Shown one piece after another: positions 49,501 through 52,500 of a DNA stretch of 64,000 bases. The position numbers and the translations under genes are program-made. The notes below the pieces were generated by a model that searched no databases, was not told the origin of the DNA, and saw only the letters and a list, made by a program, of their open reading frames with translations. The stretch is from contig CM040742.1 of the NCBI GenBank assembly GCA_022829145.1, forward strand, positions 15,304,131 to 15,368,130. Reading direction: 5' to 3'. Position 1 is the stretch's first letter, and the number at the start of each line of letters is the position of its first letter. The DNA comes from Albula goreensis (Eukaryota > Chordata > Actinopteri > Albuliformes > Albulidae).

Positions 49501-52500
49501 AGACTGAAGACAGGTGTTATGAGCGAGTCTTAACCTTCTTTTAGGATTACAAATTGGCATGTATGGAGAGGCAACAGCTTAATCAGTACAGTTAGTTTTG
49601 GTCAAAGGCTTCTTGTACAACACAGCAAGGAAGCCTGGAAGGTCAGGTAGAACCAAAGCAGTGTCACGATCTCTGACAGTGAGAAATGGATTTAGGCCTC
49701 AGCTCATATGTTGGGAAATGGCGGTTTAGGCCTTGAGGCCATGTGCACTGTGCTCAGTTAAGCAAAGACAGGCCTGAATGTGATTAGTCTCTGGAGCTAT
49801 CCTCGTGAGTGACCTGCGCTCTGGGAGCAGGTTATTTTCCACTGTACGTCCGCCACCCAGCGACTCAGTGGACATGGCAGAGATGATGATTGATGGACAG
49901 TTCTCAATGCTCTGATTATTCTTCAAAACCTTTACTGGCCACCAGCCTCTCAGTCAATTTTAAGCACAAAATGTTCTGTCATGTTCAGAAATGGAAGAGG
50001 AACCCAGTGTAGATTTGAGTGATAAATAAGAAAACAGAATTAAAAAAAAATAAGATTAAGTATAATCAGCACAGTCCAAATAACAGATTTATAACATGAT
50101 TCACTTTTGGGGAAAAACAAAAATAAGCAGTGTGTTTTATCACCTCAGTGATATGATGTCAAAGCGAGAAAACCGTCATCGTTATTGAGCGTGCATGTTG
50201 TTTAATGTTCACCATCCTTTCTGGAAAGTGCTTGAAGGAAGAGAGGAGGCGATGCATGTGGCATTGGTGTGTGTGTTTATGTGTGTGTGTGTGTGTGTGT
50301 GTGTGTGTGTGTGTGTGTGTGTGTGTGTGTGTGTGTGTGAGAAAGAGAGAAAGACAGAGCGATGTCTGAACCTTTAGCTATGCTGCTGTGCCATTCACAC
50401 CACAGCTCAGTAACATAAACCACATGGGCAGGCTGGCATATTCACTGCTCTGGGGCTTAAGCTGTTTTTAAAGACATCATTCATGGTATGCTGGGTAAAG
50501 AAAACAACATCCATTGAGATGTACAGCATCTGGCAGACAAGCCGGATTCAAGAACCAGAATTATGTAACCCCAGATCGCTGTATCTCAGCAATACAGAAT
50601 GACTGTGCTTCAGTTGTCTTGACTTGAGTCACTCTTTGATCGCATCCACTCTCTAAAAAAAAACAAAAATTGTATCATCCTAGCATTTTTATACTCCACA
50701 ACTTCTATAGTATAATTTAAAAAGTTACCAACCAATAAACATAGAAACACTACTTGCAGTTTACTTTCAGTTCTCACAGACATAAGTGGATTGTTGGTGC
50801 TGGTCATACATGGGGCATGATGATTTTCATATTGAAGCACAGAGTACTGTACCCTGATCCTAAATGCATTAAGCCCCTCCTCCTTGTTGCCCTCCCTCCT
50901 ATCATCACCTCTCTCTCTTTTTTTGGCTTTGATCAACCCACCCCTCCCTCCCCCCATTCCCAGGGCCCTCCTGCCTACAGCGCCTCAGCTGGCCTTCTCA
51001 GCAATCAGATCCTCGCAGTTAAGGTTTGTCTCTGTCACTCCATGTCTTCTAACCAGCAGTCTTACTTCACAAGCAGTTACTTACTTCACTGTGACGTCAT
51101 ATGCCACAGATGAACCTTTTTTTCCCACTCACTCCTTTTCCCTTTTTAATGTGAAGCTGAGTTGCTGTAGGGGTTGTTCCTAATCCCTTTGTCTCTTGCT
51201 CTTGTCCTTCAAGCCTGGCCTTTTTCTTCTCTCCCCATCTTCCTCCCTCCATTTTACTGTTTGGTCAACCTGCCCAGACGGTCTCACTTTCATTTGGGTC
51301 TGGCGCTCTCCTGCTGAGTGAACTGATACTGAAGCTAAACCTCACCTCAGCTAAGTCTAATGCTCTCTTCTTTCTCTTCCCAACTCTCAGATCCTCTGTC
51401 TAATTCTCTGTCTCTCCCACCCCCTTCTTTATTGCAAATGGTGATACATTTTCTTCTCTGACACAGCTTTACTGATCCAGTCTGCATGCTGTCTGGCACA
51501 TGTGTTCTGAGATGTGTGCTTGTTTCAGACTAACAGAGAGAAAGATGAAAAGTAAATGATATAGGTGGCCAGTGTTTTTCTTGTTGAAGACTGGGTATAA
51601 TTACTGCTCTGGCAGCACTTTAGAGTTGGGCTCAGATCACTCTAAGCTAATAAGAACGGCCTCAATATTCTGGTACCATATTTATGAGACAAAAAGTTGC
51701 TTGTTTTCATTTTGCCACAACTGTCTCCCCAAATGTGTTCCTGGAGAAAGTTCCAAGTGCTAACTGAAACCAACGTTTGAATATGTTTTTGGTACACTGT
51801 GGAACTGGCAAATGGGACAAATTACATTCTTAAGGCAGATGTCATTTTGAATAAGGCACTGTATGACAATAAAGGAAAATTATTTTGTGGTCCACCTCCT
51901 AGGACCTCTTCTTCTTCTGACCTTTTTCTGATTGTCCCTGACTGTCTGCAGGGTTTATAAGACACATGCAGATAATAGATAAAGAAGTGTTCCACAATAA
52001 GTGGAGTTTTGTATGATTTTAATTTTAATTTTAGTGGTTTTGATTTTTTAAAATATACTCTGTTTGCTCTTGCTTCATCCAGTTAAAGAACTAGTGTATG
52101 TTGCAGAAATGGTTCTTGTATTCTGATTACTTTGAATTCTGACTGTTCTAGTAACCATAGTAGTCCATGAAGTCCCATGAATCATTCACAGTGCTTATGA
52201 TAGTAAAATATACAGTAGTATAATGACAATGAAGAATGCAGGCCACCACTGCAGTTTCCCTAACTCACTCTCTCTCTCTCTCCCTCTCTTGCTCTCTCGC
52301 TCAGGGTGATCAAGGACAGGCTGGCCCCCCGGGCCCTCCAGGGCCCCCTGGACCCCCAGGTCCAAGGGGTCCCCCTGGAAACACAGGGAAAGATGGGCCC
52401 CAGGGACCCCCTGGGGAGCCGGTAAGAAACCCCAACCCACCCTCATATGTGCCCTCATCCATCTCCAATACCATGCAGCTTTACCCACAGCATCTCAGCC

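Follow-up and report, generated by a model that had tools for sequence, protein, structure and literature searches.

The collagen XXIII gene in the window

The window, by which we mean the whole stretch of 64,000 nucleotides that was analysed, is part of contig C2 in a genome of 932 Mb and carries small, in-frame collagen exons on its + strand between positions 34458 and 63945. When 16 of the exons of this gene are joined, the product matches the Pfam Collagen family (PF01391) with an E value of 3.8e-40 and consists of interrupted Gly-X-Y repeats. A sister copy of the gene resides on contig C6. The features of the window to which we refer are the following.

39663..39689, + strand: exon GTPGRDGYP, collagen XXIII; identical peptide in the C6 copy
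45221..45247, + strand: exon GPLGMDGKP, collagen XXIII
45798..45824, + strand: exon GAPGPKGDQ, from the collagen exon scan
48294..48320, + strand: exon GTAGPKGDK, from the collagen exon scan
48904..48930, + strand: exon GDQGDTGPR, the last of COL1, preceding exon A; C6 counterpart GDQGDVGPR
50344..50451, + strand: non-coding block that the C6 copy shares, ~510 nt before exon A; 70% over 108 columns
50942..50963, + strand: exon A acceptor with its pyrimidine tract (ccctccctccccccattcccag); score 14.3
50964..51023, + strand: exon A of NC2, 20 codons (60 nt), phase 0/0; homologues on C6, C17, C18 and C10
51024..51029, + strand: weak, conserved donor gtttgt of exon A (T in positions +3 and +4); score 4.9
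51024..52304, + strand: intron expected to hold a 72-nt exon B; none found
52305..52421, + strand: GDQGQAGPP exon, 117 nt, the start of COL2 in the numbering of collagens XIII and XXV, following exon A; matches of 92% on C6 and 90% on C17
59517..59588, + strand: later non-collagenous exon, NC3 of XIII and XXV; C6 counterpart GVPGEKGAQGSSEVIDFSGKLQEAFR

The gene appears to be that for collagen XXIII (col23a1) and not that for XXV or XIII. Overall identity is non-deciding in this respect, since the window gene agrees with human XXIII at 144 of 231 residues and with human XXV at 148 of 236. The naming is drawn from the presence of the human COL23A1 signatures RDGYPGPLG.DGKP and GEMGLSG, from the sister copy on C6 (202 of 260 aligned residues identical, joined exons) and from the existence of other loci that fit XXV (on C17) and XIII (on C10) better. 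The human signatures and the C6 copy bear out the original prediction that a collagen XXIII gene lies here. Human COL25A1 and the gene on C17 share 75 of 78 aligned residues, and the XXV sequence used for naming is supported by a peptide of exon B (see below) that PMC12154835 independently gives for human COL25A1.

A motif search of the window detected no exon for a type II transmembrane N-terminus with a furin site, and the N-terminal transmembrane/furin exon is presumably located upstream of the window. The C-terminal two-cysteine region gave a weak match at C2:15369124-15369186, ~1 kb past the window, that spans no more than residues 1-21 of the 31 (67%, E 0.084). The segment encoded at 59517-59588 is of the NC3 type; this exon is two codons shorter in the window gene than in the C6 copy (24 vs 26, SSEVIDFSGKLQEAFR in C6), a difference that falls in a coiled-coil segment.

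Outside of the exons, and with two matches in CA repeats set aside, three non-coding blocks are conserved between the two col23a1 copies at 70-74% (38369-38444, 46938-47011 and 50344-50451). The last of these, with an E value of 1.8e-7 in a local comparison and 2.6e-6 in a wider one, could act in splicing or as an enhancer. It adjoins a long GT repeat (window ~50270-50340) that lies ~620 nt upstream of exon A.

Exon A and its splice signals

With its flanks, exon A reads ccccattcccag/GGC CCT CCT GCC TAC AGC GCC TCA GCT GGC CTT CTC AGC AAT CAG ATC CTC GCA GTT AAG/gtttgtctct. Its frame is open and encodes GPP followed by 17 residues that do not follow the Gly-X-Y pattern, and it falls precisely at the junction between the GDQGDTGPR exon and the GDQGQAGPP exon. 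The acceptor score is the second highest and the donor score the third lowest among the 19 window exons listed, a list that is incomplete and was scored with an approximate splice matrix; the low donor score is a feature that the original prediction did not bring up. With both strands of the whole window scanned, three phase-0 open AG..GT intervals of 27-120 nt score at least as well as exon A at both ends (cut-offs that are exon A's own scores and were thus set post hoc), and all three are on the + strand. The two others, at 57466-57519 (a listed exon, by its scores) and 62079-62132, are both collagen-coding, and exon A is the only interval in the window that is exactly 60 nt long and passes both cut-offs. 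No known structured RNA reached its gathering score in the window.

On this sequence evidence exon A is a genuine coding exon. The sequence itself, the splice scores and the conservation in paralogues described below together confirm the prediction of a 60-nt, phase 0/0 open exon with a strong acceptor between GPR and GDQGQ. That the exon did not arise by chance is argued mainly by its conservation in paralogues, which is stronger proof than the count of splice scores.

Homologues of exon A in the sister genes

When the 117-nt downstream exon was used as a query against the genome, two strong relatives were found, on C6 and C17, and the next of the 95 matches had an E value of 0.007. A query with the C-terminal peptide of collagen XIII, at E values up to 1, yielded seven matches, two of them on C10 and one each on C17, C18, C6, C2 and C3, the one on C3 being weak (E 0.16). 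Comparison of exon peptides with the human sequences named the genes as col13a1 (C10), col25a1 (C17 and C18) and col23a1 (C6 and C2). The C18 gene had been considered as a col13a1 copy from its C-terminal match, and was rejected as such since its exons GDAGSSAAGIK and GEPGLPGLPGLPGIK fit col25a1. Membrane-collagen genes in this genome number five or more (two of col23a1, two of col25a1 and one of col13a1), which fits the retention of duplicates after a teleost genome duplication and is in keeping with the original prediction's view that this is a fish gene.

A homologous exon A is present in all five of the XIII/XXIII/XXV genes identified in this genome. Its positions outside of the window, with that of one exon B, are as follows.

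C6 18437221-18437162, - strand: exon A of the col23a1 copy, between matching flanking exons; 16/20 amino acids identical to the window
C17 15472451-15472510: exon A of col25a1, GLPGLPSLAALHSNQILTVK, between matching flanking exons; 11/20 amino acids identical to the window
C18 24902138-24902197: exon A of col25a1, GLPGAPALAALHSNQILTVK, preceded by the GPR exon and followed by exon B
C10 13452657-13452601, - strand: exon A of col13a1, DLPLKTLAALRSSQVLMLK, 57 nt; donor gtttgt
C17 15474288-15474359: exon B of col25a1, 1.8 kb downstream of exon A

The exons A on C17, C18 and C10 were located by reading the corresponding interval and not by peptide search, and the placement on C18 relies on the two neighbours, GDPGDQGPR upstream and exon B downstream, the 117-nt GDQGQ exon of that locus being unreadable. 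In a protein search of the whole genome, the exon A peptide of the window found matches on C2 and C6 only at E values up to 10; the idea that exon A is a copy of a repeat was rejected on the grounds that this search matched only the window and the C6 copy. The motif S[NS]QI[LI].[VL]K, sought in six frames of the window and of the loci other than C10 and C18, occurs only in the exons A of the window, C6 and C17. The C10 exon A does not fit this motif; the core L.S[NS]Q is common to it and the window exon. The original prediction had pointed to a similar RSSQIIALK in collagen XIII, and the col13a1 of this genome does have AALRSSQVLMLK in the corresponding exon. Because matching exons exist in the sister genes for collagens XIII and XXV, exon A is, as far as such homology can tell, an old part of the family, and the further idea that it represents an ancestral break of the XIII/XXIII/XXV group agrees with its occurrence in each of the five genes.

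Although the C18 copy of exon A keeps an open frame, the acceptor AG comes one base late, so that the exon would be 59 nt long and out of frame. Either exon A is dispensable in at least one of the duplicates and the C18 exon represents decay in progress, or the displaced base is an assembly error.

Exon B and the NC2 domain

A further exon of 72 nt, exon B, lies downstream of exon A in three of the five genes, where it encodes MVFPRFDHGFLSGDQPNFQRRILK (C6), MVFPKINHGFLSADQQLIKRRLIK (C17) and MVFPKINHGFLSADQQLINRRLIK (C18). The C17 peptide MVFPKINHGFLSADQQLIKRRLIK is identical to the NC2 segment of human COL25A1. The human COL25A1 peptide INHGFLSADQQLIK, printed in PMC12154835, falls within the exon B sequence. 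No exon B was detected by tblastn in the window intron 51024-52304, and the candidate relic of one in the same intron was rejected, its alignments being no better than those of shuffled sequences (162 of 200 and 90 of 200 shuffles at least as good). Matches to exon B in col13a1 on C10 were unconvincing. A search of the open literature for a peptide like SNQILTVK, of the col25a1 exon A, found no paper.

The window gene thus carries a non-collagenous exon between the last COL1 exon and a GDQGQ-type exon, which is the arrangement of an NC2-type insert. The original prediction had described exon A as a break put into COL1, a wording that holds under the numbering of mammalian XXIII and does not hold in the sense of a new break inside COL1; by homology, exon A belongs to NC2, where COL1 and COL2 of XIII and XXV meet. 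The presence of exons A and B in the paralogues argues that exon A belongs to an ancestral NC2 of two in-frame exons.

Constraint on the peptide and conservation of the donor

The exons A of the window and C6 are identical at 41 of 60 nucleotides and 16 of 20 amino acids. The synonymous/non-synonymous check that had been proposed for the exon, run against the C6 copy, gave 13.0 differences over 16.2 synonymous sites vs 6.0 over 43.8 non-synonymous sites, so that replacement changes are few and silent sites are near saturation. By codon position the differences number 4, 1 and 14 (third positions 14 of 19, P 1.3e-5). The third-position excess is non-significant for the window and C17 (11 of 25, P 0.11) and for C6 and C17 (12 of 27, P 0.084). 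The non-synonymous fraction of exon A, 0.14, is within the range of 0.00 to 0.23 seen for 13 other equal-length exons of the two col23a1 copies. Judged by its substitutions, exon A is shown to be under protein-level constraint between these two copies.

The donor AAG/gtttgt is found in all five exons A and in none of the 53 other exons scored from these genes. The scans that supplied the 53 required a certain donor score, itself lower than the score of AAG/gtttgt, and very weak donors may be under-represented among them; T at donor position +3 occurs in one of the 53. The corresponding Fisher value of 2e-7 is descriptive only, the five exons A being relatives, and their shared gtttgt represents conservation and not five independent events. 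A weak donor that has been kept for so long suggests that its weakness is useful.

A proposed splice switch and its alternatives

The interval 50964-51023 is, in our judgment, probably NC2 exon A of col23a1, descended from an ancestral two-exon NC2 from which B was lost in this gene, with A as an optional exon. The ancestral NC2 of collagens XIII, XXIII and XXV would have lain between the ..GPR exon that closes COL1 and the GDQGQ exon, and would have comprised two in-frame exons in tandem, A of 57-60 nt and B, which is 72 nt long in the genes where it was seen. Exon B would then have been dropped from the window gene, which is the simplest reading, and the weak donor would make exon A optional. 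Inclusion of A would break the triple helix near the membrane with 17 residues, creating a flexible joint of exposed chain at which the helix might bend or become accessible to proteases or binding partners. Skipping of A would join GPR to GDQGQ and leave Gly-X-Y continuous, a consequence of the absence of B from this gene. The window gene might thereby produce either a hinged or a straight collagen XXIII through the splicing of one exon, and the C6 copy could use neither exon, A, B or A plus B.

The cassette use of exon A is plausible from its weak conserved donor, its preservation of the frame and the splicing reported for NC2 in related collagens, although the very strong acceptor counts against it, in that it fits constitutive use as well. 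NC2 exons of collagen XIII are reported to be alternatively spliced (a title cited in PMC4678570, and PMC12669723), and the latter source describes for collagen XXV, from human fibroblasts, 13 novel alternative exons coding for part of NC2, COL1, COL2 or COL3, its cited passages not singling out those of NC2. Such reports for XIII and XXV make optional use of exon A likely. The splicing of XXIII and XXV is stated in PMC4678570 not to have been adequately documented, and among the matches listed from the open literature (titles and starts of abstracts) none describes an NC2 or an alternative exon of collagen XXIII.

Exon A might instead be real and constitutive, with NC2 in every collagen XXIII molecule and the weak donor aided by exonic or intronic enhancers. 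The second strongest acceptor of the 19 and the protein-level constraint are what such an exon would display, but its donor is the third weakest of the 19 and the same weak hexamer recurs in all five paralogues, and alternative splicing of NC2 has been reported for XIII and XXV (PMC4678570, PMC12669723); we consider constitutive use unlikely, if still deserving of attention. It is far less probable that exon A is a relic, formerly coding and now skipped and drifting in the window gene. The loss of B from this gene and the lack of an in-frame acceptor in the C18 copy would suit such a fate, but the open frame, the strong acceptor, the conserved donor and the few replacement changes against near-saturated silent changes would not. 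Pseudo-exons are common in long introns, and exon A could in principle be one that arose by chance; this origin is refuted by the paralogue comparison, with homologues at the same place, and is given practically no weight by us, the other two intervals that pass the splice scores of exon A on both strands of the window being collagen-coding.

The optional exon A that we prefer leads to a broader and more tentative proposal, to which we assign somewhat less than an even chance. All vertebrate membrane collagens might have inherited an A/B splice switch that selects between a straight and a hinged stalk near the membrane and is held weak by a gtttgt donor that predates their divergence. Different halves of the switch would since have been lost, namely B in the window gene, A's in-frame acceptor in one copy of col25a1 and perhaps both exons in mammalian XXIII.

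Significance and comparison with known collagens

A conserved NC2 alters the domain map of the window XXIII gene and suggests that the mammalian form of XXIII, as known, is derived. The A/B exon pair, with exon A at the same place and with the same weak donor in five genes of three types, is a concrete candidate for a family-wide splice switch. By the account of PMC4678570, collagens of the XIII/XXIII/XXV type had been studied only in mammals before that report. Exon B of collagen XXV contains a peptide that was quantified in Alzheimer brain samples (PMC12154835), so that an alternative exon A next to exon B would bear on which XXV isoform such assays count.

NC2 is not known from mammalian collagen XXIII. 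Human COL23A1 resembles the window gene in the flanking sequences RDGYP, GPLG.DGKP, GDQGQ, LGLP..DGEKGPKG and GEMGLSG, but it runs from GDFGPR directly into GDQGQDG and is not known to have A or B. For collagen XIII (COL13A1), the col13a1 gene of this genome has a homologous exon A with the donor gtttgt, whereas that exon is 57 nt long and not 60, lacks the GPP start and is preceded by GVCGDYSHR. In collagen XXV (COL25A1), the human NC2 segment corresponds to exon B, in contrast to the window gene with A and without B; the two are alike in the location of NC2 at the same GPR/GDQGQ-type junction, where the col25a1 gene on C17 has both exon A and exon B.
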